In this document: one piece after another, positions 12,265 through 28,488 of the stretch
How positions within the stretch are numbered: the first letter of the stretch is position 1
Layout: every line of letters starts with the position of its first letter
Assembly: GCA_028293625.1 (NCBI GenBank)
Contig: JAQGOL010000024.1
Coordinates: 186,001-250,000, forward strand
Direction of reading: 5' to 3'
DNA: 64,000 nt
Source of the DNA: Chthoniobacteraceae bacterium
GTDB taxonomy: Bacteria > Verrucomicrobiota > Verrucomicrobiia > Chthoniobacterales > Chthoniobacteraceae
Notes under the pieces: generated by a model
Told to the model about the DNA's origin: nothing
The model's database searches: none
Seen by the model: only the letters and a program-made list of their open reading frames with translations
Program-made: the position numbers and the translations under genes

Positions 12265-15200
12265 ATGTCCGAAAATCCCCGGCCTCATCCACTCCTTGAA
12301 CTGCTCCAAAATCGCGTCGTCATCATTGATGGCGCGATGGGGACGACGATCCAGCAATACAAGCTTTCCGAAGAACAATTTCGCGGGGAGCGTTTCCGCG
12401 ATTGGACGGGAAAAGATCTCAAAGGAAACAACGAGCTGCTTAACCTCACGCAGCCGCAGATTATCCAGGAGATTCATCGCCGGTATCTTGAGGCGGGTGC
12501 TGACATCGTGGAGACCAATACCTTTAACGGGCAATTTATCTCCCTGTCCGATTACGGGATGGAATCGCTCTCTTACGAGCTTTCGCGGGCAGGCGCCGAA
12601 TGCGCCCGCCGCGCGGCCGATGAAGTGATGGCGGCGCAACCCGGCCGCCAATGTTTTGTGGCCGGCGCGCTTGGGCCAACGACAAAAACATCGTCCATTT
12701 CCACCGATGTGAACGACGCCTCGGCGCGTGGCACGACATGGGATGAGCTTGTAAAAGCCTACGATGAGCAGGCTCGCGCGTTACTCGATGGCGGCGCCGA
12801 CATCCTGCTGGTCGAAACGATTTTCGACACGCTCAATGCGAAGGCGGCGTTTTTTGCCATTGAGAAGCTTTTTGCCAAACGCGGATTAACGGCGCTTCCG
12901 TATGGCCGGGAACCCGAGCCGGGCAAACCGATCGTGCCGATCATGGCATCGGTGACGTTTATTCAAAAAGGCGGCACCCGGGGCGTCACCGGGCAAACCG
13001 TAGGCGCGTTCTGGAATTCGATTTCGCATGTGCCGCTGCTGAGTGTGGGAATGAACTGCGCGCTTGGACCCGAGGAGATGCGTCCGCTTATTCAGGAACT
13101 GAGCGGGCTGGCTCCGCTCTATGTCAGCGTTTATCCGAATGCCGGCTTGCCCAACCCATTGCTGCCGACCGGTTTCCCCGAGACGCCCGAGACATTGGCG
13201 CCACAATTGGCCGAGTGGGGACGCGAGGGAATTTACAATATCGTGGGCGGCTGCTGCGGAACGACACCGCCACACATTGCCGCGATCAGCGAGGCGGTGC
13301 GTGGAATAGCGCCGCGCGTGGTGCCATCGGTGGAACCGTATCTGCGGTTAAGCGGCAACGACGAGCTGACGCTTACCCCGGAGACCAATTTCATTAATAT
13401 CGGTGAGCGTGCGAACGTCACGGGGTCGCCAAAGTTTTCGAAACTGATCCTGGCGGGCAATTATGAAGAAGCGGTAAGCGTGGCGCGGCAGCAGGTGGAA
13501 AACGGCGCGCAAATCATCGACGTCAACATGGACGAAGGGATGCTCGATGGCGTGGCGGCCATGACGAAATTCCTCAACTACATCATGACGGAGCCGGAGA
13601 TCGTCAAGGTGCCGGTGATGGTCGATTCCTCCAAGTGGAGTGTGATTGAGGCCGGGCTCAAATGCATGCAGGGAAAAGGGATCGTTAATTCGATTTCCTT
13701 AAAAGAAGGCGAAGAACGCTTCCTTCATTACGGGCGGCTGGTGCGGCGTTATGGCGCGGCCGTCGTTGTCATGGCGTTTGATGAACAGGGACAGGCGGAC
13801 ACTTTCGAGCGCAAGATCGCAATCTGCGAACGGAGTTACCGGCTGCTTGTCGACGTGGTCGGATTCCCGCCGCAGGACATTATCTTTGACCCGAACATCC
13901 TGACGGTCGCCACGGGCATCGAGGAGCATAACAATTACGCCGTCAATTTCATCGAGACGGTGCGCTGGATCAAAGCGAACCTCCCTTACGCGAAAGTCAG
14001 CGGCGGCGTTTCCAATATCTCCTTCAGTTTCCGTGGCAACAACGTGGTGCGCGAGGCGATGCATTCGGCTTTCCTTTTCCACGCGATCCGCGCCGGACTC
14101 GACATGGGGATTGTAAATGCGGGAATGCTCGAGGTGTACGAGGAGATTCCAAAAGAGCTGCTTGAACTGGTGGAAGATGTGCTGCTCAACCGGCGTCCCG
14201 ATTCAACTGAACGGCTGGTCACATACGCCGAGACGGTCAAGGCGAAGGACAAAGGACAGGTCGCCGTCGAGGAATCAGCCTGGCGCAAGACTCCCGTCGA
14301 GGAAAGGCTCTCGCATGCCCTGGTCAAAGGGATCGTCGAATACATTGATGCCGATACCGAGGAGGCGCGCGTCAAGTATGGGCGCCCGCTCGCCGTGATC
14401 GAAGGGCCGCTCATGGATGGAATGAACATCGTCGGCGACCTGTTCGGGGCCGGAAAGATGTTCCTGCCGCAAGTGGTTAAATCCGCGCGGGTCATGAAAA
14501 AAGCGGTCGCCTATCTCTTTCCATTCATGGAAGCCGAGAAAGCCGCCACACGCGCGGCCGGCGGGGAAGTGCGTGCGCAAGGCAAGGTGCTGATGGCCAC
14601 GGTCAAAGGCGACGTGCACGACATCGGCAAAAACATCGTGGGCGTGGTGCTAGGCTGTAATAACTACGAGATCATCGACCTCGGTGTGATGGTCCCTTGC
14701 GATAAAATCTTGCAGGTCGCCCGCGACGAAAACGTCGATGTGATCGGGCTTTCCGGCCTGATTACCCCGTCGCTCGATGAGATGATCCATGTGGCGCGCG
14801 AAATGGAGCGGCTCGGCATGAAACAGCCGCTTCTGATTGGCGGCGCAACGACGAGCAAAGCGCACACGGCGGTCAAGATCGCGCAAGGTTACTCCGAGCC
14901 TGTTGTTCATGTGCTGGACGCATCGCGCGCAGTGCCGGTGGTCAGCAGCCTGATCAGTAAGGAGCAGAAACCGGCGTTTGTGCAAAAAAATCGCGACGAG
15001 CAGGCATTGGCGCGCGCCGCGCATTCCGGGCAGGTGCAAAAGCTGATCGATTTGGAGAAAGCGCGCGCCAACCGGACCGCCATCGAGTGGCGCGCCGAGG
15101 AGATCTCGCAGCCCGAGTCGACGGGACTGCGTGTGTTGGATGAAGTGCCGCTCGAGATTTTGCGTGAGTTGATCGATTGGTCGCCCTTTTTCCATACCTG

Positions 15201-16071
15201 GGAATTGCGGGGCGTTTATCCGAAAATCTTCGAGAACGAGAAATACGGGGAGGAAGCGCGCAAGCTCTTCAATGACGCGCAGGCATTGCTCGACGTAATA
15301 GTCAGAGACAAGCTGCTCACCGCAAGAGCCGTTTACGGGCTCTTCCCAGCGAATTCGGTTGGGGACGATGTGGAGATTTACACGGATGAAACGCGCACCA
15401 AGCTGTTGACCACCTTCCATTTTCTTCGACAGCAGATGGCCAAAAAAGAGGGCGAGCCCAATCAGTCGCTCTCCGACTTTGTCGCGCCGAAAGAAACCGG
15501 TTTTGCGGATCACCTTGGCGTGTTTGCGGTGTCGACCGGTTTTGGTCTTAAGCCGGTGGTGGAGAAGTTCAAGGCCGATAATGATGACTACAACGCCATC
15601 ATGGCCGAGGCGCTTGCCGACCGTTTGGCTGAGGCGTTCGCGGAGTATCTCCATAAAGTCGCCCGCGAAGAGTGGGGGTTTGGACGCGATGAACAGCTCA
15701 CCGTTGAGCAATTGCTGCGCGAGCAATATCGCGGCATCCGTCCGGCGGCAGGTTACCCGGCATGTCCCGACCACACCGAGAAACGGATTCTATGGGAACT
15801 GCTCAATGTGAAGGAGCTGACTGGAATCGAGCTCACGGAGAACTGTGCGATGTGGCCCGGCTCCAGTGTGAGCGGCCTTTATTTTGGACATCCCAAGGCG
15901 CGCTACTTCGGGCTGGGCAAAATTGATCGCGACCAGGTAATCGATTACCACCTGCGCAAAGGGATGACGTTGCAGGAAACCGAACGCTGGCTCGGACCCA
16001 ATCTGAACTACGATCCGGTCGCGCCGGTGGAAGCCGGGCCATTTCGGTGCGCCTGCGGCGTCCCGCATTAA
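12265..16071 (+). CDS. metH: Cobalamin-dependent methionine synthase
   Basis: The 1268-aa enzyme transfers the methyl group of 5-methyltetrahydrofolate to homocysteine through methylcobalamin. All modules are present in order. The homocysteine domain (1-340) has zinc ligands in GMNCALGP and [10 protein letters not shown]. The pterin domain (about 360-620) starts [13 protein letters not shown]. The cobalamin cap precedes the B12 domain, with [20 protein letters not shown] near residue 780 holding the Asp-x-His-x-x-Gly axial-ligand motif. The AdoMet activation domain (about 930-1268) has [15 protein letters not shown]. Length is normal. The upstream 109 bases show no cobalamin riboswitch that I can recognise. 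A second homocysteine-methyltransferase domain lies 6 kb away, fused to MTHFR. Confidence 0.98.
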
Positions 16072-16268: not shown

Positions 16269-17777
16269 ATGCTGTTTGTTGAGTTCCGGTTCCTGGTTTT
16301 CTTTCTGATCGTTTTCGGGGTGCATTGGGCAATCCCGAGTAATACCTGGCGCAAAGCCTGGCTGCTTGCATGCAGCCATTTCTTTTATGCCTGTTTCTTC
16401 ATTGGCGATCCGTGGAGCTTCTACGCCAAGGTTCAGGAACACAAAGAGTTGCCGGCTGGCTGGTGGTTCCCGTTTGTGCTGATCGGTTCCACTTGCATGG
16501 ATTATGCCGTCGGCCTTGGGATCGCCGATGCCACAACCAATTGGCGCCGCAAAGCGTGGCTGATGACCAGCCTGGCCATCAACCTTGGCGTTCTGGTCAT
16601 CTTTAAATATTATAACTTCTTTGTCGGATCCGCCTCGGGTTTCCTTGACTGGTTCGGATTGCATACTTCGGATTGGACGCTGCAGATCTTTCTCCCGTAC
16701 GGAATCAGCTTCTATACTTTCCAGTCGATGAGCTACTCGATCGACGTCTACCGGCGTCGACTGGAGCCGGTGCGGCGGTTTCTCGATCTCGCGTTTTTTA
16801 TCTCCTTTTTCCCGCAGCTTGTCGCCGGTCCGATTGTGCGGGCAATGACCTTTCTCCCTCAGGTTTATGTCAAACGGCAATGGGCCGATGTCGATGTGCG
16901 CCATTGCCTGGTCCTTTTTTTCATTGGTTTTGTAAAAAAGGCGTGCGTGTCGGAAATGGTGGCGCCCGTGGTGGACAAATACTTCTCTTCACCCGGAAGT
17001 TTTAACCTCTATAGCAGTTTCATCGGTGTCGCGTTTTATGCGGTGCAGATCTATTGCGATTTTAGCGGATACACGGATATGGCGATCGGTGCCGCGCGGC
17101 TGCTCGGTTACGATCTAACCGTTAATTTTAATTTCCCGTATTTCTCGGAACACATCACTGAGTTCTGGCGGCGATGGCATATTTCGCTGAGCACGTGGTT
17201 GCGCGACTATCTTTACATTCCGTTGGGTGGAAATCGCGGCTCGACGCTTTTTACTTACCGCAACCTGATGGCAACGATGGTGCTGGGCGGGCTCTGGCAC
17301 GGAGCATCGTGGAATTTTGTCATCTGGGGCGCATTGCACGGCATCGCACTCGTGTTGCATCGAGAATGGCAGCGGCTCACCCAAAATGCCGCCCTCTGGT
17401 TTAAAAGGACGATGTCGTGGCTGGGACCGTTCCTGTGCTTTTATTGGGTCTGCATCACCTGGGTTTTTTTCCGGGCACAGCCGATATTTGATGAGAAAAC
17501 CCACGCGCTAAAGGCAACGGGATTTGAGGTGGCAAAAACCGTGTGCAGATCGTTTGTGTTTTTTACACGAAACGGCAAAGCGAGTTTCCCGCTTCATTGC
17601 CTTTATCTCTTTATCGCGCTCGCCGTAATCCATTGGCTTGCGTCGCGCCAGCTCTTTGCCAGGTGGTGGCGCCGAATTCCTGCCTGGGCGTTTGCCGCAT
17701 TATTGGGAACCGGAACCGCCGTGGCGCTTTCCTTTGTCCCGGCCAAATACAAAGCCTTCATCTATTTCCAATTCTAA
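16269..17777 (+). CDS. MBOAT-family O-acyltransferase (AlgI/PatA-like)
   Basis: A 502-aa multi-pass membrane protein with about eleven hydrophobic segments. The MBOAT hallmarks are FWRRWHISLSTWLRDYLYI followed by PLGGNRGS, and GGLWHGASWNFVIWGALHG, whose second His is the presumed catalytic residue. ISFYTFQSMSYSIDVYRR and AGPIVRAMTFLPQ are also typical of AlgI-like proteins, which move acetyl groups across the inner membrane to polysaccharide or peptidoglycan. Such proteins normally work with an SGNH partner (AlgJ, AlgX or PatB); none is adjacent, since the gene is followed by a tRNA on the other strand. The acceptor polymer is therefore unknown. Confidence 0.93.
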   Translation: MLFVEFRFLVFFLIVFGVHWAIPSNTWRKAWLLACSHFFYACFFIGDPWSFYAKVQEHKELPAGWWFPFVLIGSTCMDYAVGLGIADATTNWRRKAWLMTSLAINLGVLVIFKYYNFFVGSASGFLDWFGLHTSDWTLQIFLPYGISFYTFQSMSYSIDVYRRRLEPVRRFLDLAFFISFFPQLVAGPIVRAMTFLPQVYVKRQWADVDVRHCLVLFFIGFVKKACVSEMVAPVVDKYFSSPGSFNLYSSFIGVAFYAVQIYCDFSGYTDMAIGAARLLGYDLTVNFNFPYFSEHITEFWRRWHISLSTWLRDYLYIPLGGNRGSTLFTYRNLMATMVLGGLWHGASWNFVIWGALHGIALVLHREWQRLTQNAALWFKRTMSWLGPFLCFYWVCITWVFFRAQPIFDEKTHALKATGFEVAKTVCRSFVFFTRNGKASFPLHCLYLFIALAVIHWLASRQLFARWWRRIPAWAFAALLGTGTAVALSFVPAKYKAFIYFQF

Positions 17778-18889: not shown

Positions 18890-19261
18890 TTAGATCTGCA
18901 TGCTGGCGTCTGCCAGGATCGGATCAAGTTCGTCAGGCATGAACGGCTTGATGAGATGGTGGCGATAACCAACAGCCAGACTTTTTGCCCGATCGCTGTT
19001 CATTCCGAACCCGCTCATGGCAACCGCATAAATGGGGCGTACGGCGGTAAGCCGTTGAAGGAGTTCCCAGCCATCGCCATCGGGCAGTCCAATGTCGCTA
19101 ATCAGCAGATCAATTTCGAGAGCGGGAATCTGGTCCAGGGCGCTGGTCATGCTGGAGGCGACCTCGACATGATGCCCGAGCGTCTCAAGATACATACGCA
19201 TGTATTTGAGAGTGTCCGTATGATTTTCAACAAGGAAAATCCTAAGCGAAGACTTTTTCAT
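18890..19261 (-). CDS. Single-domain response regulator (receiver)
   Basis: A 123-aa protein made only of a CheY-like receiver domain. The phosphoacceptor is Asp56 in LLISDIGLPDGDGWE, the Ser switch is in AVAMSGFG, and the conserved Lys is in HLIKPFMP. The metal-binding acidic pair is incomplete: the usual Glu-Asp after the first strand reads Glu12-Asn13 (FLVENHTDT). With no output domain it would act by protein contact, as CheY and Spo0F do. It is divergently transcribed from the pseudokinase-SUMF1 gene with about 490 bases between the starts. No histidine kinase is in the window. Confidence 0.9.
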   Translation of the reverse strand: MKKSSLRIFLVENHTDTLKYMRMYLETLGHHVEVASSMTSALDQIPALEIDLLISDIGLPDGDGWELLQRLTAVRPIYAVAMSGFGMNSDRAKSLAVGYRHHLIKPFMPDELDPILADASMQI

Positions 19262-19747
19262 TTCGCAGGAGCGCAGTGGAGATAGACAAAGCGGAGGGGG
19301 GCCACGCTGCTGTCACCGGGGCAATGTGCGGGTAAACCGGAAGCAACTCAAGCGTCAATTGTGAAGCAGATTTTTTCGGCGCAATTACATCACTACGATG
19401 ATGTATAAAGGATGAGAGTGGCGGTACTGGTCACCAGTAAAAAAGGCGTTCAAAGTTACTTAATCCTTTGGAGCCTGTCGTCTTTCTCCATAAAAAGCCA
19501 TTTCAGGGAAGCCGGGCTCGCGACATCGCAAACGGTCCACACGGACGCCACGAGCTTGCTTCAGAAAAGTCCCAAAGGGGACTTAGTAAAGTCTGCCGGG
19601 CGCTTATCTTGCTCCCTGCGTGATTTTCACTTGGGCGCATGCGCGGAGCGTGTTCCTCTTGCATGGCGGCAGCGAGTCCGTTTCTTTCCGGACTTTTATT
19701 GCAGCCGCATCCGCCAATATCCTGTCAGGAAAACTAAGACTGTTGAT
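19262..19747. other. Divergent intergenic region and long leader
   Basis: No convincing gene is present between the receiver start and the chosen start of the pseudokinase gene. The frame of the latter stays open back to ATG 19412, but the sequence there reads as a non-protein mixture of Cys, Arg and Ser with no domain, so I treat it as untranslated. The region holds the palindrome at 19386-19405 and a small hairpin, AAGTCCC AAA GGGGACTT, at 19567-19584. Both promoters should lie here. Confidence 0.5.
19386..19409 (+). promoter_or_regulatory. Perfect palindrome next to a TATAAA box
   Basis: TACATCA (19386-19392), six bases, TGATGTA (19399-19405) is a perfect inverted repeat, the form of a dimeric repressor or activator site. 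It overlaps TATAAA at 19404-19409, a plausible -10 box for the plus strand. No good -35 element is seen 16-18 bases upstream, which would suit an activated or repressed promoter. It lies between two divergent regulatory genes. Assignment is by pattern only. Confidence 0.35.
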
Positions 19748-22237
19748 TTGAATACCAGAGATCCTCTTTCCATCAAGCCGCCCGGAGTCATCGCCCCCGA
19801 TTTCGTTGCGGGGCAAAAACTGGCGGGCTGTTATGTTCTGGGCCGCCGCGTGGAGAGCGGGAATGGAGCGGAGATCTGGCTGGCTTACGACGAGGTTCGC
19901 GGCCGGGAACTCTCGCTCTATTTCATTCCAAAGGCAGTGCGCGTCGATCAGCCTGCGATGGGGGAAATCCGCGTCCTGGTGGACCGCTTGCAGCGGCTGA
20001 TCCACCCCAATATCCTGCGCGTTCATACCCTGTTGGAGGAAGTCCAATGGTCGGCGATCGTGATGGATCATTTTGACGGTGAAACCCTCTGGGCAATTCA
20101 ACAGCGAAAAGCAGGCGGCTGCTTCGAGCCGGCGGAGATCAGCCCGTGGCTCGTCCAGATCTGCGCGGCCCTCGATGAAGCACATAAAATCGGGATAACT
20201 CATGGCGAGGTCTCGCCGTGGAATATTTATATTCAAAAGAGTGGCTCTCCACTGCTTGCCAATTTTGGAGTCGGCCGCTCGGTTCGCGCTCGTAATGAGC
20301 AAGCTCCGGCAATCGGTGAAGACATGCAGGCATTTGGAATCCTGATGCACACGCTCCTGGTTGGAAGCGCACCTGCTGTCGTGATTCCGAGTGTGCCTGA
20401 AAGCCGTCCCGCCGAGTTGGCCGAAACCTCCGTAGTCGGTCTGGGCGCGATGAAAATTCCAAGCGAGGCGCTTTCTTCCATCGGATATCGGCGGGCGGCA
20501 GTCAGAAAAACAGGTCTGGCCGCCATTTCGGCCGGTTGGGAAAAGATCGCGGCGGCGTGTCTGGAAAAAAATGCCGAACTTCAACCGGCGAGCATGGCGG
20601 AGATAGCGGTTCGACTGGTTCCGGAAAAAGCGGCGATGCCAAACCTGGTGTTGCCAAAAGGGTTGGCCAGGCAAGCTCCCTCTAAAGTGGAGGTGCCTGC
20701 TTTTGCCCGGCCCAAGATGCCTCCGATTGGAATGTTACTGGCCAAACCAAAACCGCCCACCCCGGTTCGGCCGGAGCCAGCTTTTTTACAGCCCCGGGAG
20801 CTTCCGATTGATCCCCCTTTGATTCCAAAACCTGCAGTTCCCGGATTGTCAATCGCGCCGAGGCCTGAGCATGACGTTGTACCAGTGGAGGCGCCGGCCG
20901 GAGTGAAGACGCCCGCCGCGGCGGAGACGCCTGCCGGAGTGGAACCATCTGAAAGCGAACGCGCGGCTCCTCCTCGTAAAGCGAGCAGAAGCAGGGCCGC
21001 GTTTGGGCTGGCGGCGGCGCTCCTTTTGTGCGCAGCGGGAATCTACGCGTATTGCATGCATGAAAAGCAAAAAGCGGTTGAGCGGAGACCCGTTGTCAAA
21101 ACGCAGGGCAAGGAAGTACCTCAAAAAATTGTGCCTAAAGAGTCGCGCGAAGTTCTCGGCGCGGCGCCCATGATCGAACCTCTAGCCGATTCCGGCGAGA
21201 AAGACGACGCGACACATTCCGCGCAGACCGATGCCGCCACCCCTGCTGCGGAGGAGGCTCGCGTCAACTCCGTCGAGGAACTTCGCGCCCTGGAGATTCA
21301 GGCCGCAAACAGCCGTTACGAGGAAAAGATGAAGGCACTGGCGGAAACGATGAGAAAATTCCAGGAACTTTCCCCAGCGGACGCTGCAACAGGTTCTGAA
21401 CCGCTGGCACCCGACGCCGAGGCGCCCAAGCCCGATTCCGCGCATGTCATCGAGCCGCCCAGGGAGATCGAGGAAATGAAAGCGCCGCCCGCCGCGAGCG
21501 AAAAAGCGCCTCTGGCCCCCGAACCGGTCAAAGAGTTCAAAAACAGCTTGGGCATGAAGTTTCTGCCGGTTGGAAAAGTGCTCTTTTCCATCTGGCCTAC
21601 GCGATTTTCAGATTTTGAGGCGTATGCCACGGCGACAAAGTTTCGCTCAAAGTTATGGAAAACAACGGATGCCAAACAGGCGCCCGATCACCCGGTGGTG
21701 TATGTGAGCTGGCTCGACGCGATGAGCTTCTGCAACTGGCTTACTGAAAAGGAACACCAGGAGGGGACACTTCCCGCCAATCAACGCTATCGGCTGCCGC
21801 ATGATCTGGAGTGGAGCGCAGCGATCGGACTTGCTCAGGAAAATGGCGAAACGCCCGCCGCTCGCGACATGGGGGTTCCCAATATTTATCCCTGGGGCGA
21901 CGCGTGGCCACCTACCGCCGGCGCAGGCAATTATGCCGGTGAGGAAACACGCATGGCGGCCGCAATCAAAGGATACAAGGATGAATTTCCCCAGACCTCG
22001 CCGGTCGGCAGCTTTTTGCCCAATTCAAACGGCCTCTACGATATGGGCGGCAATGTCTGGCAATGGTGCATGGAAGCGTGGAGCGCCGGGGATGCGAAAT
22101 CCAAAGTGCTCCGTGGCGCTTCGTGGAGCGATGGACGTCTTAAGCCCGCTCTGCTTTCTTCCTGCAGGATCCGATCGCAACAGGATAACAAAGCTGAAAA
22201 CTTTGGTTTCCGTTGTGTAATCGAAACGGCCGATTAA
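19748..22237 (+). CDS. Pseudokinase-TM-SUMF1 (formylglycine-generating-enzyme-like) fusion
   Basis: An 829-aa protein from TTG 19748, the first start before the kinase-like domain (start uncertain; ATG 19412 is the alternative). Residues 29-300 follow a Ser/Thr kinase fold: YVLGRRVESGNGAEIWLAYD as Gly loop, HPNILRVHTLLEE as helix C region. The catalytic HRD reads HGE (152-154) and DFG reads NFG (172-174), so both catalytic Asp are missing and it is probably a pseudokinase. A Pro/Ala-rich linker leads to a membrane helix near 417-437, a Glu/Lys-rich helical segment, then an SUMF1/FGE-type domain from 598: NSLGMKFLPVG, HPVVYVSWLDAMSFCNWL, RYRLPHDLEWSAA, NIYPWGDAWP, GLYDMGGNVWQWCMEAW, FGFRC. The latter faces outside the membrane if the kinase part is cytoplasmic. 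Confidence 0.88.
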   Translation: MNTRDPLSIKPPGVIAPDFVAGQKLAGCYVLGRRVESGNGAEIWLAYDEVRGRELSLYFIPKAVRVDQPAMGEIRVLVDRLQRLIHPNILRVHTLLEEVQWSAIVMDHFDGETLWAIQQRKAGGCFEPAEISPWLVQICAALDEAHKIGITHGEVSPWNIYIQKSGSPLLANFGVGRSVRARNEQAPAIGEDMQAFGILMHTLLVGSAPAVVIPSVPESRPAELAETSVVGLGAMKIPSEALSSIGYRRAAVRKTGLAAISAGWEKIAAACLEKNAELQPASMAEIAVRLVPEKAAMPNLVLPKGLARQAPSKVEVPAFARPKMPPIGMLLAKPKPPTPVRPEPAFLQPRELPIDPPLIPKPAVPGLSIAPRPEHDVVPVEAPAGVKTPAAAETPAGVEPSESERAAPPRKASRSRAAFGLAAALLLCAAGIYAYCMHEKQKAVERRPVVKTQGKEVPQKIVPKESREVLGAAPMIEPLADSGEKDDATHSAQTDAATPAAEEARVNSVEELRALEIQAANSRYEEKMKALAETMRKFQELSPADAATGSEPLAPDAEAPKPDSAHVIEPPREIEEMKAPPAASEKAPLAPEPVKEFKNSLGMKFLPVGKVLFSIWPTRFSDFEAYATATKFRSKLWKTTDAKQAPDHPVVYVSWLDAMSFCNWLTEKEHQEGTLPANQRYRLPHDLEWSAAIGLAQENGETPAARDMGVPNIYPWGDAWPPTAGAGNYAGEETRMAAAIKGYKDEFPQTSPVGSFLPNSNGLYDMGGNVWQWCMEAWSAGDAKSKVLRGASWSDGRLKPALLSSCRIRSQQDNKAENFGFRCVIETAD

Positions 22238-22307
22238 GCGCCCGGCTGCGTCTGGAGGGGAACCCCTTTTATCGCCTCGACGCACGCACAAGACGCCCTC
22301 ACCACTC

Positions 22308-24140
22308 ATGGATCTGCTCGATGAATTGCAAAATCGTGTTTTACCGGCTGATGGCGCAATGGGGACGCTCCTCATGGAGCGTGGCATTCCGTTGGAGCAG
22401 TGCTTTGAAGAGCTCTCCCTGAGTGATCCTGCGCTGGTAAAGGGAATTCATGAGGAGTATATCGCCGCCGGAGCGCGCCTGATTGAGACCAACAGCTTCG
22501 GGGCGAACTCAGTGCGTCTGGCAAAACATCGGCTTGAGCATCGGGTTGTTGAAATCAACGGCGCCGCAGCGTGGCTGGCCCGCACCGCTGCTCACGGCAA
22601 AGGCGTTTATGTTGCCGGGAGCATCGGGCCGCTCGGGATTTCCGCCGAGCAGGCAGGGGAACGCGGGATCAATCGAACCGCGGTTTTTGCCGAGCAGATG
22701 GGCGCGCTGCTTGATGGAGGAATTGATGTGATCCAACTGGAGACGTTCCTTAATCTGAATGAAATGCTTCTTGCTTTGGAAGCCAAGCATTCATTGAGCG
22801 ATTGTCCAGTAATCTGTTCACTGTCATGTAATGAAGAAGGACGCTTGCCGGGAGGAATGCCATTGGCCGATGCGTTTTTAAAACTGCGCGCCGCCAAGGC
22901 GGATGTCGTGGGTGTAAATTGTGTTAATGGCCCTCAAGCTATGTTGCGGCTCTTCGAACGGTTGCCGGTCGAAGGCGTCGTCTCCGCGTCTCCTAACGCG
23001 GGTTACCCGCAATATCATGAGGGTCGCTTTCTTTATTCCACCACCCCTGACTATTTTGCACAGGCTGCATCGCGTCTGGCCCAGTCTGGTGTGCGGTTGG
23101 TTGGGGGGTGTTGCGGCACAGGCCCAAGGCATATCGCGGCGATGGCTGTCGCCTTTAAAAAGCTTTCACCCGTGGCGGTGGGAGAAATGCCACGCACACC
23201 GCTGGAAGTGGTTGCTCCGGAAAAAACTCTCCAAGGCACTCATACCGAGCGGCCGACCATTCTGGAACTGATGAAGCGGGGGGATACGGTTGTCGTAACC
23301 GAGCTCGACCCGCCTAAGACGTTGGAGCTTGAAAAGTTCTACACAGGCGCGCGCGCCCTTCGCGATGCCGGCAGCGACCTCATTACCCTCGCTGATAACT
23401 CGCTGGCGATCCTCCGGGTGAGTAACCTGGCGATCGCGGCAATTCTTCAGCAGCGATTCCAGATCACACCGCTTGTGCATTTGAGCTGCCGCGATCGGAA
23501 TGTGATCGGTTTACAAAGTGAGCTTCTGGGCATGGCCGCTCTTGGCATCCGCCACGTGCTGCCGTTGACGGGCGACCCGGCTAAAGTCGGCGATCATCCC
23601 GGAGCAACCTCCGTTTATGATGTCACATCTATTGAATTAATTCGGATTATTGGACAGCTAAATCTAGGGTTAAATGCTGGGGGTAAATCGATAAAGGAAG
23701 GCGCACGGCTTGTGGTGGGATGCACGTTTAATCCGAATGCCAAAAATCTCGATGCCCAGCTGCAACGTCTGGAGCGCAAGATCGCCGCCGGCGCCCAGTA
23801 TGTGATGACGCAGCCGCTCTTTGATACGCGCCTGGTCGAAGAGACGGCGCGGCGCACGAAAGGGCTGGGGGTTCCTGTTTTGATCGGCGTTTGGCCATTG
23901 TTAAATGGCAGGCAAGCCGAATTCCTTCACAATGAAGTGCCCGGAATCGTGATTCCCGAATCGGTGCGCACGGCGATGCGGGGAAAAGAAGGAACCGACG
24001 GGCGCTCCGGGGGGATGATGATAGCGAAGGATGTTTGCCGATCTGTTTTGGATCATTTCCCCGGCGTTTACTTAATCACACCTTTTCTTGTGTATGAGAC
24101 CACGGTTGAGCTGGCGCACTTCGCAAGGGCGGAAAAATGA
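22308..24140 (+). CDS. Bifunctional homocysteine S-methyltransferase / methylenetetrahydrofolate reductase
   Basis: A 610-aa fusion of the YitJ type. Residues 1-300 are a homocysteine methyltransferase domain: LPADGAMGTLLMERG, LIETNSFGANSVRL, VGVNCVNGP and VGGCCGTGPRH, which carries the zinc cysteines. Residues 320-610 are a MetF-like flavoprotein: VVTELDPPKTLELEKF, DAGSDLITLADN, LVHLSCRDRN, VLPLTGDP, VGCTFNPNAKNLDAQL and MTQPLFDTRLV. It could make 5-methyltetrahydrofolate and use another methyl donor such as S-methylmethionine on homocysteine. No separate metF is in the window, so it probably supplies MetH (12.3-16.1 kb) with its folate substrate. The ATG follows a C/T-rich leader. Confidence 0.95.
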   Translation: MDLLDELQNRVLPADGAMGTLLMERGIPLEQCFEELSLSDPALVKGIHEEYIAAGARLIETNSFGANSVRLAKHRLEHRVVEINGAAAWLARTAAHGKGVYVAGSIGPLGISAEQAGERGINRTAVFAEQMGALLDGGIDVIQLETFLNLNEMLLALEAKHSLSDCPVICSLSCNEEGRLPGGMPLADAFLKLRAAKADVVGVNCVNGPQAMLRLFERLPVEGVVSASPNAGYPQYHEGRFLYSTTPDYFAQAASRLAQSGVRLVGGCCGTGPRHIAAMAVAFKKLSPVAVGEMPRTPLEVVAPEKTLQGTHTERPTILELMKRGDTVVVTELDPPKTLELEKFYTGARALRDAGSDLITLADNSLAILRVSNLAIAAILQQRFQITPLVHLSCRDRNVIGLQSELLGMAALGIRHVLPLTGDPAKVGDHPGATSVYDVTSIELIRIIGQLNLGLNAGGKSIKEGARLVVGCTFNPNAKNLDAQLQRLERKIAAGAQYVMTQPLFDTRLVEETARRTKGLGVPVLIGVWPLLNGRQAEFLHNEVPGIVIPESVRTAMRGKEGTDGRSGGMMIAKDVCRSVLDHFPGVYLITPFLVYETTVELAHFARAEK

Positions 24141-24175
24141 TTTCCAACAGGTGACCGCAGCTTTCCTGGACTAAA

Positions 24176-24913
24176 ATGAGCCGCGCCAAAGCTCTTCTGT
24201 ACGCGCAGCTTTTTGGGATGGCCCTGGCTGCCGGCATTGCGATTTGGGCCATTCGCACGCTCCCCCTTGTCGATTACCTGCTGCAGGTTCAAAGGCGAAT
24301 CGTTCAGATGCATGTATGGGGTATTGTGTTTTATCCAATGCTTTATGGCGTTAGTAATGTGTTTTTGCTGCCGGCCGGCGTGCTTGCAATCGGCAGCGGA
24401 CTCTTTTTTGGGCTCTGGTGGGGCTTCATAATCAACCTTGCGGGGAACATTGGCGGAGCGGCGGTAGCTTTTTTTATCAGCCGGAAATTGGGCCGCAAAT
24501 GGGTCGCTCAAAAGTTTTTCCAGCACCGGAAATGGGCTCTCCTGGATGAAGCAATCGGTCGTGATGGATGGAAGATTATCTTTCTGAGCCAGGTTCACCC
24601 GCTCTTTCCGACCAGCCTGCTCAATTACCTCTATGGAGTTACCAGGATCGGATTTGGTTCCTGCATGCTGTGGATTGCACTCGGCCAGGCTCCCGGGTTG
24701 TTTCTCTACGCTTACCTCGGCACACTTGCACAGTTTGGCATTCAAGTCTGGCAAGGCCGGAGTCATCCGCGCTCCTTGGAATACTGGCTTTGGATCGGCG
24801 GCCTTGCGCTTACATTTGTGACAACGACGCTGCTGGCGCGCCTTGCATTCAGATTGCTTGGGAAAGCTGCTGAAGAAGACAAGGCGACGCAGACACACTC
24901 CAGTGCTCTCTGA
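24176..24913 (+). CDS. TVP38/TMEM64-family (DedA-like) membrane protein
   Basis: A 245-aa protein with about six hydrophobic segments. The family core is present: NVFLLPAGVLAIGSGLFFG, GNIGGAAVAFFISRKLGR, FLSQVHPLFPTSLLNYLYG and GQAPGLFLYAYLGTLAQFG, with the Gly-rich and Pro-containing re-entrant loops of the VTT domain. Members of the DedA/TMEM41/VTT superfamily are now linked to phospholipid flipping; the substrate here is not known. It starts 35 bases after the methyltransferase/MTHFR gene and may share its transcript. Confidence 0.93.
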   Translation: MSRAKALLYAQLFGMALAAGIAIWAIRTLPLVDYLLQVQRRIVQMHVWGIVFYPMLYGVSNVFLLPAGVLAIGSGLFFGLWWGFIINLAGNIGGAAVAFFISRKLGRKWVAQKFFQHRKWALLDEAIGRDGWKIIFLSQVHPLFPTSLLNYLYGVTRIGFGSCMLWIALGQAPGLFLYAYLGTLAQFGIQVWQGRSHPRSLEYWLWIGGLALTFVTTTLLARLAFRLLGKAAEEDKATQTHSSAL

Positions 24914-25050
24914 ACACGCTTTGCGGCGGTAAATGCCCCAGACCATCCTGCTATTTTTGGATGAGCTCTTTGAGAAGTGGGCAGCCGCAAAAGAGTGCTG
25001 CGATTCCTCCCGCAGCACGCCGCCGCAGTGGAAGAAAGGTTCTAAAACGC

Positions 25051-25086
25051 AAAAAGCCCCCGCGACTCGGAGGAGTCGCGGGGGCT
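25051..25086 (-). terminator. Rho-independent terminator of the Ala-rich secreted protein gene
   Basis: Arms AGCCCCCGCGACT (25055-25067) and AGTCGCGGGGGCT (25074-25086) are perfectly complementary around a 6-base loop. On the minus strand the hairpin is followed by a T-run (complement of AAAAA at 25051-25055) and it lies 28 bases after the stop of the gene at 25115-26272. On the plus strand the T-run TATTTTT starts five bases after the stem, so weak action on that strand is also possible. Confidence 0.9.
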
Positions 25087-25114
25087 GGAGTATTTTTGAC
25101 TCTACTGGCTAAGA

Positions 25115-26272
25115 TCAGTTGATCTTGGTGACTGCATGGGCAACACCGTCAGCGAAGTAAACTCCACGGCGGCCTGATCCACCAGCGCTGTCAGAGGTGG
25201 CATAAGCTTTCGTGATGCCATCGATGACTGACGTTTCCAGATCTTTGCCCAAGTTCTGGCCCTTTGTCTTGGAAGGAGCAGCAAACTTCTTGGCGTTGGC
25301 AGGGCTCAAACCGGAATTGATCGCAGCGACGATGTCAGCAACGTTGCTGGCAAGGAACTCAGGGAGACCCACTTCGGCCGCTTGACCGGAAAGGGTGGCA
25401 TGAGTCTGACGATACGTGGTTGCGAAGGCATAACCGGCTGCCTGTGCAATTTCAAGCGCATGAGTGGAAGCGCTCTTGGCGGCTGTTTTCAGAATCGCTT
25501 TGACGACTGCATCGTTAGCCGTGACAGCATCCTTGATCGAGGAGTTATTGGAGCCTGCGGTCTCGTAGATTGCACCAGCGACTGCGCCGGAAACACCATT
25601 GTGCTCGAGATCAGTCGACTTGACTTTGATCGCTGCTTTGACGGCTGCGGTCACGACGACCTGCAGAGGGCTCGGCAGTTTAGGATCGGTGCTGATAATC
25701 AGTGTGGCAGGATTGCCAAGGGCGCTCACATCCTTGAACGTGATCTGCGTGGCGATGTCGGACTTGTCACCAAATCCGGCAAACGAGTTGCCATTGGGCA
25801 GCTTGCCAACTTTATAAGTCGCCAGTCCTTTCGAGAAGGCCGTGCTCACGATTGAACTTACCTGCTTATTCTTCTTTGCAGGAGTGTTCAGGGCCGGAAA
25901 GACTGTTGTGCCATATACCTTGGCCAATGCCGCTTCCGAAATGCTGGCAGCGAATTGAGGAACACGGTTCAGAGCGGCGGTTACGATGGTCGCCGGAAGG
26001 ACTTTCGAAGAAGCCTGCAGTGCATTGATTGCGTCGATCGCGGCATCCGCGATAAACTGCGAGTCCACGGTGGTTGTCTTGGCAACCTTCAGGGTGACTC
26101 CATTGTGCTTTGCCTGAAGCTGCGCATCAATCAATGTGTCAGCCGCATTGAGTTTTGGAATGCCGGCGGCAAAGGAAGCCGTAGCGCTCGTTAGCAGCAG
26201 AGCCGCTGAGAATCCCACAATCCGGCCAAGCCGGAATGTTGGGGTGGATGGTATTTTTAGGGTGTTGATCAT
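25115..26272 (-). CDS. Ala-rich secreted protein, function unknown
   Basis: A 385-aa protein with a signal peptide (GRIVGFSAALLLTSATASFAAG; cleavage likely after AFAA-like SFA). The mature part is rich in Ala, Val, Thr and Lys and poor in Cys and Trp, with many predicted helices: DAAIDAINALQASSKVLP, TAALNRVPQFAASISEAALAK, VTAAVKAAIKVKS, AVVKAILKTAAKSASTHALE. The pattern of short alternating helices may be an internal repeat. I do not recognise the family. AAGGAT lies 8 bases before the ATG, one of the few Shine-Dalgarno-like sites in the window, and a very strong terminator follows. Both fit an abundant single-gene transcript. Confidence 0.85.
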   Translation of the reverse strand: MINTLKIPSTPTFRLGRIVGFSAALLLTSATASFAAGIPKLNAADTLIDAQLQAKHNGVTLKVAKTTTVDSQFIADAAIDAINALQASSKVLPATIVTAALNRVPQFAASISEAALAKVYGTTVFPALNTPAKKNKQVSSIVSTAFSKGLATYKVGKLPNGNSFAGFGDKSDIATQITFKDVSALGNPATLIISTDPKLPSPLQVVVTAAVKAAIKVKSTDLEHNGVSGAVAGAIYETAGSNNSSIKDAVTANDAVVKAILKTAAKSASTHALEIAQAAGYAFATTYRQTHATLSGQAAEVGLPEFLASNVADIVAAINSGLSPANAKKFAAPSKTKGQNLGKDLETSVIDGITKAYATSDSAGGSGRRGVYFADGVAHAVTKIN

Positions 26273-26538
26273 GAGACTAAATCCTTAGAGGGGGTTCGGA
26301 GGTTTGGGGCTCGCCCAGCCGGGCTATATTTCGAGTAAGCGAAAACCATCGGAATGGAAAGGTTTGTTTTTAAAATTATCGCTCTGCCTTGCTCCTTACA
26401 TCTCAAACCAGAAGTGACCGGCCGGTGGCAAGATTATTGAGAGAAATGTGAGCGAATTCAGAGGCATTCCCAGGAAAAGAACTTTTTTTTGGAGTGCGCC
26501 CTTGCCTCGCCGGTGGCTCTGGACGTAGAGAGCGCCCA

Positions 26539-28488
26539 ATGAAGTATCTGGGACTCACTCTATTAGTGCTCGCGTTCGCCACGAGCCAACTTTTGATTGG
26601 CGGGGCGCGAATGCTATTTTGTCTTCCTGTATACGGAATATTAGCCATCGTTTCGGTCTGCGCGGTCGTGCCGCGGTGGCGTCCGGTCGGTAAACTTCCG
26701 TTTGGCAGTTTGCTGACAAGCCTGCTGTTTTTTGGCTACATCGTCGTCCAAACACGGTTTGCCCCGGTGGAGTATCTCGCCCGTAATGATCTTTTTATCG
26801 TGCTTGGCAGCTTGATGGTGTATCTGTTAACGGCTGTTTTTTTTGTGCGTGCCGAGGAACGCCGTTTCGTTCTTTTTGGCCTGCTTGGATTGGCCGCCGC
26901 GCAGCTGATCCTGGGGGCAATTCAGTTTCGTGAAGGCAACCAATATATGCCTTTTGCGTGGATGCAGCGCTCGGACACCTGGTGGCGGGCCAGTGGATTT
27001 TACATTTCACCCAATCATTTCGCCGGTTTGGTGGAGGTTATTGGACTTATGGCTATTAGTATGGCGCTATGGAGTAAACGATCCGTTTTGGAGCGGCTCG
27101 TGATGGCCTACCTGGGCGCTTGTTGCGTGATTGGCGTTGCCATTTCAGGCAGCCGGGGCGGATATCTCGCTCTGATCTCGGGCTCGGTATGCCTGCTCGT
27201 TTTGAGTTTATGGACGTGCCGTTATTTTTATCGCGGCCGATGGGCGCTCATTGCCGTCTCAACCGTGGTCGCCGCCACGCTGGTGTGCGCAATTGCTGTT
27301 AGTTTGATGTTTCAAAGTGCTTCACTCCAAAAGCGTTTTTTTGACATCCGTGATCCCGGCAATATGCGCTTTCTTCTATGGGGTGCGGCTTTGGAGCAAT
27401 TCCATCTTGAACCGATCTGGGGTACTGGCAGCGGCACCTACATTTCTTATGGCCGCACATATCGCGATCCGCAGGTTCAGAATGATCCGGTTTTTGTACA
27501 CAACGATTATCTTCACCTGCTGGCCGAATACGGGATGGTGGGAGCGGCGGGTTTCCTGCTTTTTTTCGCGTGGCACGGAGTGAGCAGTTTCAGGTCAATC
27601 GGGAAGTTGGCGCGCCAGGTGCGTGAGATGGGAGAGACCCGGGGCGACGCCCTGGCGTTGCATCTTGGAGCCATGAGTGCCGTTAGCGCGTATGTGGTGC
27701 ATTCAGTTGTTGACTTCAATTTGCATATCCCTGCCAACGCGCTGGTAATGGCGATGGTATTTGGGATAGTCGCAAATCCGGGCGTGACCCAGGCATCATC
27801 CAAATGGAGCGCTAAAGTGGGTGAATGGACAATTAAGATTGCGCTATTTGCTATCGGAATGTTTGTGCTTGTATATGGAGTGCCTCTTATTCGTGGCGAA
27901 TGGTATGCGGAATTTACTCGGCGCGCGTTGCTTAGCTATCAGCTCGCTGAAACACGCGCGCTGGCCGGTGAAGCGATCAAGCTCGATCCCTCAAATCCCG
28001 AAGTCTATTTTTATGCGGGCGAGGCCGCGCGCGAGATGGCAAACAACCAAACGGGCGATGTGCCCGCGCTTCAGGAGGAGGCAATCGGGATGTTTAAGAG
28101 GGGGCTTGAATTGTTTCCAGACGACAGCCGCACGATGGTAAAACTGGCCGAGGCTTATGATCAGGCAAAGCGATTTGACGAAGCCGAGGAGATTCTGGCG
28201 CGGGCTTACGAAATCGATCCTAACTCGCTTTATGTGCACGCCTATTACGGGATGCATTATCGGGATCAGGGGCTTATTTTAGAAGCTGCCAACGAATTCC
28301 AGATTGCCAAGGAACTCGATCGCGACAGCGTATTTAAGGTCGCCCAGATTGGTTTTGCCGAAGTCCAAAAAGTGCTCGCTACCTTGCCCTTAACTCCGCA
28401 GCCGGAGGAGAGTGAGTCGATGGATCCGGAAGCGGACTCGCAGGCTGAGCCGTCCGACACGGAAGATCCTGTCGAGCCCCCTCAATAA
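26539..28488 (+). CDS. O-antigen-ligase-like membrane protein with C-terminal TPRs
   Basis: A 649-aa protein. I chose ATG 26539 (MKYLGLTLLVLAFATSQLL) over GTG 26494 because it starts at the first membrane helix. Residues 1-450 hold about ten to twelve hydrophobic segments. The Wzy_C/WaaL-like loop contains GTGSGTYISYGRTYRDP and VHNDYLHLLAEYGMVG, whose His is the conserved catalytic candidate. Residues 460-620 are tetratricopeptide repeats: LAGEAIKLDPSNPEVYFYAG, MFKRGLELFPDDSRTMVKLAE and ILARAYEIDPNSLYVHAYYG. The tail is acidic. The family joins or polymerises surface glycans in the outer leaflet of the inner membrane; this TPR-bearing type may instead glycosylate exported proteins or polymers. 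No other glycan genes adjoin it. Confidence 0.88.
   Translation: MKYLGLTLLVLAFATSQLLIGGARMLFCLPVYGILAIVSVCAVVPRWRPVGKLPFGSLLTSLLFFGYIVVQTRFAPVEYLARNDLFIVLGSLMVYLLTAVFFVRAEERRFVLFGLLGLAAAQLILGAIQFREGNQYMPFAWMQRSDTWWRASGFYISPNHFAGLVEVIGLMAISMALWSKRSVLERLVMAYLGACCVIGVAISGSRGGYLALISGSVCLLVLSLWTCRYFYRGRWALIAVSTVVAATLVCAIAVSLMFQSASLQKRFFDIRDPGNMRFLLWGAALEQFHLEPIWGTGSGTYISYGRTYRDPQVQNDPVFVHNDYLHLLAEYGMVGAAGFLLFFAWHGVSSFRSIGKLARQVREMGETRGDALALHLGAMSAVSAYVVHSVVDFNLHIPANALVMAMVFGIVANPGVTQASSKWSAKVGEWTIKIALFAIGMFVLVYGVPLIRGEWYAEFTRRALLSYQLAETRALAGEAIKLDPSNPEVYFYAGEAAREMANNQTGDVPALQEEAIGMFKRGLELFPDDSRTMVKLAEAYDQAKRFDEAEEILARAYEIDPNSLYVHAYYGMHYRDQGLILEAANEFQIAKELDRDSVFKVAQIGFAEVQKVLATLPLTPQPEESESMDPEADSQAEPSDTEDPVEPPQ

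Follow-up and report, generated by a model that had tools for sequence, protein, structure and literature searches.

The window analysed here, a stretch of 64,000 nt from contig JAQGOL010000024.1 of a Chthoniobacteraceae bacterium (assembly GCA_028293625.1), contains a gene in which a kinase fold is joined through a membrane helix to a fold of the FGE/SUMF1 type (Table 1). The start of this gene is unsettled, because its reading frame continues without interruption upstream to an ATG at position 19412; the codon-position GC pattern of the extra 112 codons is weaker than that of the gene body, and the TTG start adopted here is therefore plausible, not proven. The fused methyltransferase/MTHFR gene downstream occupies the same place in another genome of the set (G001). 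The MBOAT and Wzy_C proteins encoded nearby are suggestive of surface polymers and are no evidence by themselves. A search for the template of a diversity-generating retroelement found no long direct repeat in the 8 kb scanned (window positions 19000-27000).

Table 1. The pseudokinase-FGE gene, its parts and its neighbours; positions are counted from the first nucleotide of the window and aa numbers from the TTG start.
Feature	Position	Strand	Basis or remark
MetH-like methionine synthase	12265-16071	+	By reading; other side of the pseudokinase region
MBOAT protein	16269-17777		Within 5 kb of the pseudokinase gene
Stand-alone CheY-like receiver, divergently transcribed	18890-19261	-	Pfam, E 1.7e-18; weak candidate partner
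Pseudokinase-TM-FGE gene	19748-22237	+	829 aa from TTG; frame and Pfam
Pseudokinase domain, aa 17-296	19796-20635	+	Pfam, model and PDB matches; predicted cytoplasmic
Tyr58 at beta3 Lys position	19919-19921	+	Alignment
Leu77 at alphaC Glu position	19976-19978	+	Alignment
HGE (aa 152-154) at HRD position	20201-20209	+	Alignment
NFG (aa 172-174) at DFG position; most of the activation segment absent after it	20261-20269	+	Alignment
Pro/Ala-rich linker, aa 297-418	20636-21001	+	Composition
Membrane helix, aa 419-437	21002-21058	+	Hydropathy
Short charged stalk, probably helical, aa 506-544	21263-21379	+	Inspection of sequences
FGE/SUMF1-fold domain without catalytic Cys pair, aa 599-824	21542-22219	+	Predicted extracytoplasmic
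Fused homocysteine methyltransferase/MTHFR gene	22308-24140	+	Pfam; downstream of the pseudokinase gene
385-aa Ala-rich protein, signal-like start	25115-26272	-	No Pfam match
Wzy_C (O-antigen-ligase-type) protein, C-terminal TPR repeats	26494-28488	+	Within 5 kb of the pseudokinase gene

Both ends of the protein are recognised by Pfam, with Pkinase matching aa 33-184 (E 8.3e-12; 45.5 bits against a cut-off of 31.7) and FGE-sulfatase (PF03781) matching aa 627-824 (E 2.9e-31; 109.5 bits against a cut-off of 23.3). A second hydrophobic stretch, from aa 195, falls within the kinase fold, and in the full-length relatives compared the membrane helix likewise lies between the kinase and FGE domains; the stalk between helix and FGE domain is far longer in many relatives. 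The AlphaFold2 model of the kinase part (pLDDT 83, pTM 0.81, residues 201-226 below pLDDT 50) matched, best among the PDB entries listed, the kinase domain of PknA (Z 24.7, 243 residues aligned, rmsd 2.7); further Ser/Thr kinases of bacteria are also among the matches listed. The model of the FGE part (pLDDT 91, pTM 0.90) was matched by PvdO (Z 23.3), Treponema variable protein 1 (23.0), human FGE (21.1) and PorK (21.0), the FGE-type folds among the matches listed, including the paralogue SUMF2, spanning Z 20.8-23.3. The E-values, the models and the conservation described below exclude a chance origin of this architecture. The first-pass annotation had proposed a kinase fold tethered through the membrane to a SUMF1 fold, and Pfam, hydropathy, the AlphaFold2 models and the PDB matches agree on it; we are close to certain that the gene encodes these two folds with one membrane helix and that the kinase is a pseudokinase. 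The kinase part would lie inside the cell and the FGE part outside.

Protein kinase catalysis was assessed by the beta3 Lys, the alphaC Glu and the HRD, DFG and APE motifs. A kinase fold that lacks at least one of the three catalytic residues (beta3 Lys, HRD Asp and DFG Asp) counts as a pseudokinase; the window protein lacks all three, with Tyr58, Glu154 and Asn172 in their places, and does not class as an active protein kinase. HGE for HRD and NFG for DFG had been read at the outset, with the conclusion that both catalytic Asp are lost; the motifs are where they had been reported, and the alignments, examined for a catalytic Asp placed elsewhere, put no Asp at either position of the window protein. 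By alignment, the kinase is more degraded than had been stated, given Tyr58, Leu77 and the largely missing activation segment: the stretch from NFG to helix F, of about 16 residues, is too short for a normal activation loop with APE. The first-pass annotation had also suggested that the kinase likely binds a signal or nucleotide and passes it across the membrane; the absence of beta3 Lys, alphaC Glu and DFG Asp speaks against ordinary Mg-ATP binding, and the protein is predicted to be non-catalytic. Alignment by HMMER with the human C336S structure places Cys336 and Cys341 of human FGE opposite Asp795 and Ala801 of the window protein, and no Cys occurs in the active-site stretch of any of the 31 rows aligned, including three (L076, L083 and L088) from outside the pseudokinase lineage. 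The absence of the catalytic Cys pair, suspected in the first-pass annotation, thus holds, and the reading as a formylglycine-generating enzyme was rejected on this ground.

Relatives were sought in 57 genomes including the window's own; genomes are numbered G and loci L, f1 denotes the family of the window's genome, and g2 and g4 are genera. Some match was present in 55 of the 57, many to the FGE part alone, and the loci taken further were the best 80 of 525, found by FGE patterns, so that relatives located elsewhere could have escaped. A single gene with both the kinase and the FGE part of the pseudokinase lineage occurs in 28 of the 36 f1 genomes, a count that takes in G018 (split frames), G034 (gene truncated where the contig begins) and G010 (its halves lying on two contigs). 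Among the eight other f1 genomes, five of genus g2 carry six kinase-FGE loci with intact K, HRD and DFG (L183-L187 and L189), which score 91-104 bits against the pseudokinase family profile and were not placed on the tree. No pseudokinase-FGE gene was present in G016 among the matches listed, and two of the three congeners of the window's genome showed no orthologue: G002, as judged among the matches listed, and G003, from which an FGE protein was retrieved without a kinase match.

In the kinase-domain tree of 64 rows, the window protein belongs to a pseudokinase clade of 28 rows (support 100/98), on a long end branch of 1.44. The beta3 Lys is lost in all 28 rows (26 His and two Tyr, the latter being those of L099 and the window protein), as is the DFG Asp (21 Asn, three Gly, two His, one Ser, one Ala). 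The alphaC Glu is retained in 23 rows and the HRD Asp in 15, the remaining rows having Asn (nine), Tyr, Ser, Gly and Glu (one each) in place of the latter; residual chemistry may, on this count, be possible for the clade. Outside it, L172 has Arg for the beta3 Lys and Tyr for the DFG Asp, and the state without beta3 Lys (29 rows including L172) needs one change on the tree, at a node with support of only 68/86. Several nearer outgroups are imperfect at HRD (HRK in L076, HGN in L151, HGA in L160, HGH in L046 of the window's genome), and erosion of HRD may therefore predate the clade; many kinase-FGE fusions outside it retain K, HRD and DFG. In eight pairs of relatives, dN/dS (Nei-Gojobori) was 0.018-0.224 for the pseudokinase and, for the FGE domain, 0.032-0.109, with several dS values above 1 and near saturation; such low ratios indicate purifying selection that maintains the gene in these relatives.

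The surroundings of the gene in relatives point towards polysaccharide export. A barrel-protein group follows the pseudokinase gene in 10 of 29 loci, and by coordinates a gene for an outer-membrane barrel stands immediately after it in 11 genomes (G005, G009, G010, G013, G018, G022, G025, G026, G028, G029 and G035). Eight of these show a Wza-like gene (SLBB, Poly_export) next and seven show a Wzc-like gene, the others running off the contig. The Wza-like protein of L104 scores above the cut-offs of both Poly_export and SLBB_2, that of L119 above the SLBB_2 cut-off and slightly below that of Poly_export (24.8 against 28), and the Wzc-like protein exceeds the cut-off that NCBIfam sets for tyrosine autokinases of the polysaccharide type (131.6 against 108.05). 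Along the pseudokinase-barrel-Wza-Wzc run, L119 has intergenic gaps of 79, 14 and 13 nt and L104 has gaps of 90, 19 and 14 nt, small enough to suggest one operon whose genes would be co-transcribed. A close barrel relative is present in 15 of the 36 f1 genomes, all of which also have the pseudokinase (Fisher p 0.011, kinship ignored); in four of the 15 (G007, G014, G017 and G033) the barrel is on another contig. Thirteen of the 28 pseudokinase genomes are without a close barrel relative, among them the window's genome and eight of genus g4; these eight g4 genomes gave no barrel match at all, and seven of the eight that carry the pseudokinase gene have as its neighbours, instead, genes that on reading encode a PilT-like ATPase and a methyltransferase. 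The window's genome has a barrel-Wza-Wzc group unlinked to the pseudokinase gene, on contig C37, with a barrel about 31% identical, apparent sugar-transfer genes around it and a different gene upstream. A link between the small gene upstream of that group and the Ala-rich protein of the window was considered and discarded (best E 0.36).

Upstream of the pseudokinase gene in relatives stands a divergently transcribed gene of about 460 codons (L119:8125-9528 and homologues), whose product has no match in Pfam, NCBIfam or PDB sequences and gives the impression of a discoidin-like, secreted protein. It occurs in 16 of the 36 f1 genomes, all with the pseudokinase, and in 14 of the 16 on the same contig (in G010 judged by the kinase half); in G007 and G033 the pseudokinase gene lies within about 470 nt of the contig start. 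Three genomes that belong to two other families of the order (G042, G044 and G052) have the divergent gene beside barrel-Wza-Wzc and no pseudokinase gene in between, the simplest reading of which is that the pseudokinase gene entered an older export locus.

The window protein probably serves the cell surface as a sensor or a scaffold. The reading we favour, to which we give a probability of roughly 0.45, is a non-catalytic membrane adaptor, most likely linking an extracytoplasmic cue or assembly state to the export of envelope polysaccharide. Its adaptor part is drawn from the two conserved, catalytically stripped ends and the membrane helix, and its link to exopolysaccharide export from the gene order in relatives. 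Inside the cell, the pseudokinase, stripped of Lys, Glu and metal-binding Asp, would offer a platform for protein binding; outside, on its stalk, the FGE fold without a Cys pair would bind a ligand or an envelope partner, and the cue or assembly state perceived there would be coupled to export, in keeping with the position of the gene in related genera, where it heads a run of outer-membrane barrel, Wza-like export protein and Wzc-like tyrosine-kinase protein. The binding of a ligand or partner, the export role and its retention by the window copy are predictions of this reading, and the window gene's own neighbours, a methionine-pathway gene and a receiver, count against the export role, as do the pseudokinase genomes in which a close barrel is absent or unlinked and the two congeners in which no orthologue appeared. 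A more specific history, which we put forward tentatively and hold to be rather doubtful, is that the pseudokinase family has a single origin, within Chthoniobacteraceae, in a kinase-FGE receptor that was still active, was recruited to the first position of an operon for exopolysaccharide export and acts on the Wzc-type tyrosine kinase or the export complex; if it were true, a catalytically dead receptor would control a live, kinase-driven polymer exporter.

The receiver beside the gene invites another, unlikely, interpretation, that of a two-component sensor in which this CheY-like receiver or another one binds to the pseudokinase, and input from outside comes through the FGE domain. The receiver gene adjoins the pseudokinase gene divergently, and receiver-kinase-TM-FGE fusions with degraded HRD and DFG are encoded in the window's genome (L090:3353-5485, contig C3) and in G009 (L101:4611-6698); since such fusions exist, the receiver is retained as a partner under this interpretation. 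The two fusions are 36% identical over 553 residues and have HSP/NIA and HAG motifs, respectively, with DFG absent in both; they loosely support a tie of receivers to kinase-FGE proteins, and may represent a second lineage in which a dead kinase carries an FGE ectodomain. However, these fusions, which are absent from the tree, score only 62 and 45 bits against the pseudokinase family profile, and the one of the window's genome keeps a Lys at the beta3 position. The first-pass annotation had pointed to the adjacent receiver as a gene partner, a proposal that did not survive comparison: no receiver homologue was found in 29 other loci, several with little upstream sequence (at least four with almost none, L064, L071, L074 and L078 beginning less than 400 nt from the contig start) and two (L076 and L088) outside the pseudokinase clade, and the receiver was rejected as a conserved partner.

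GldK/PorK is a ring lipoprotein of the T9SS and a structural element of an envelope machine, and the window protein could be an element of such a machine rather than a sensor, an explanation that we likewise judge improbable. The FGE part matches PorK at the Z of 21.0 given above and the GldK model of NCBIfam at E 1.9e-19, and relatives with long stalks and export-gene neighbours would suit a structural part; however, the GldK match reaches only 70.3 bits against a cut-off of 350, which excludes it from that family, a membrane helix and a pseudokinase are present, and PvdO and FGE match as well as PorK. A poorer prospect still is that the protein is an enzyme, either because the kinase fold works by an unusual mechanism or because the FGE fold acts as a PvdO-like oxidase. 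Pseudokinases that AMPylate or glutamylate exist (PMC12599244, in the text excerpted from it), the HRD Asp persists in about half of the clade, and PvdO is the top fold match listed for the FGE part, yet the window protein retains none of Lys, Glu and the two Asp, and the PvdO model of NCBIfam gives 42.1 bits against a cut-off of 500. It is very improbable that the copy in the window is drifting and in decay, despite its long end branch, its additional losses (Leu77, HGE and the activation segment), its short stalk and its distance from export genes, for its 829 codons are open, the codon-position GC pattern of its body is unlike that of the upstream extension, and it has retained the FGE residues invariant in 26 rows.

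The adaptor reading has counterparts among known proteins in its parts. PASTA-type receptor kinases combine a kinase domain with a membrane helix; PknA and kinases of this type (PknB, Stk1) are among the closest solved kinase folds listed, but they are active, and the ectodomain of PknB is PASTA (as its NCBIfam name also has it) whereas that of the window protein is FGE. The FGE part shares its fold with FGE/SUMF1, SUMF2, PorK, Treponema variable protein 1 and PvdO; unlike the FGE enzyme, it lacks the catalytic Cys pair, and it forms one end of a membrane pseudokinase. The domain order of the window protein recurs with K, HRD and DFG intact in L102 of Chthoniobacter flavus (where the membrane helix was checked) and in the six g2 loci.

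Precedents for a non-catalytic adaptor in bacteria may be seen, by analogy, in MviN and EssB/YukC as described in excerpts of a 2025 review (PMC12599244). Like the window protein, MviN (ActPs3) of mycobacteria is a membrane protein whose kinase-like domain is without catalytic motifs, acting as a non-catalytic recruiter in cell-envelope synthesis; unlike it, MviN is primarily actinobacterial, has a carbohydrate-binding domain and no FGE fold mentioned in those excerpts, and has the beta3 motif VALT (PMC12599244), against LSLY in the window protein and xxLH in most of its relatives. EssB/YukC of type VII secretion is likewise a transmembrane pseudokinase and a scaffold of an export machine, but has other motifs, belongs to Firmicutes and is described there without mention of an FGE fold (PMC12599244). 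Motifs were compared by eye with the descriptions, in the same excerpts, of the pseudokinase families ActPs1-3, GLW, CP1, DYD and DLHK; by these descriptions, the family with beta3 His/Tyr, lost DFG Asp and an FGE ectodomain may stand apart from all of them. The review, in the parts drawn on, calls bacterial pseudokinases experimentally largely unexplored and mentions no FGE-linked or verrucomicrobial pseudokinase family, and the words FGE, formylglycine, sulfatase and Verrucomicrob are absent from its text, figures apart (PMC12599244). Chlamydial Pkn1, considered as a possible described FGE-kinase, was dropped, the PKN1 of PMC7232420 (in the part of that paper retrieved) being a host kinase. 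Among the open-licence PMC papers listed in searches, none was seen to describe a pseudokinase-TM-FGE protein.

The pseudokinase-FGE protein is kept across much of one bacterial family, intact-motif relatives of the same layout exist, and in many relatives the gene lies beside genes of recognisable function. One relative is carried by Chthoniobacter flavus Ellin428, which we take to be a cultured strain. With a conserved family, intact-motif relatives, recognisable neighbours and a named strain, the role of a dead receptor kinase in bacteria becomes approachable by gene removal. In Ellin428 the pseudokinase-FGE gene (L104:9944-13197) lies in two overlapping frames, which may be a real split or an error of the draft sequence.
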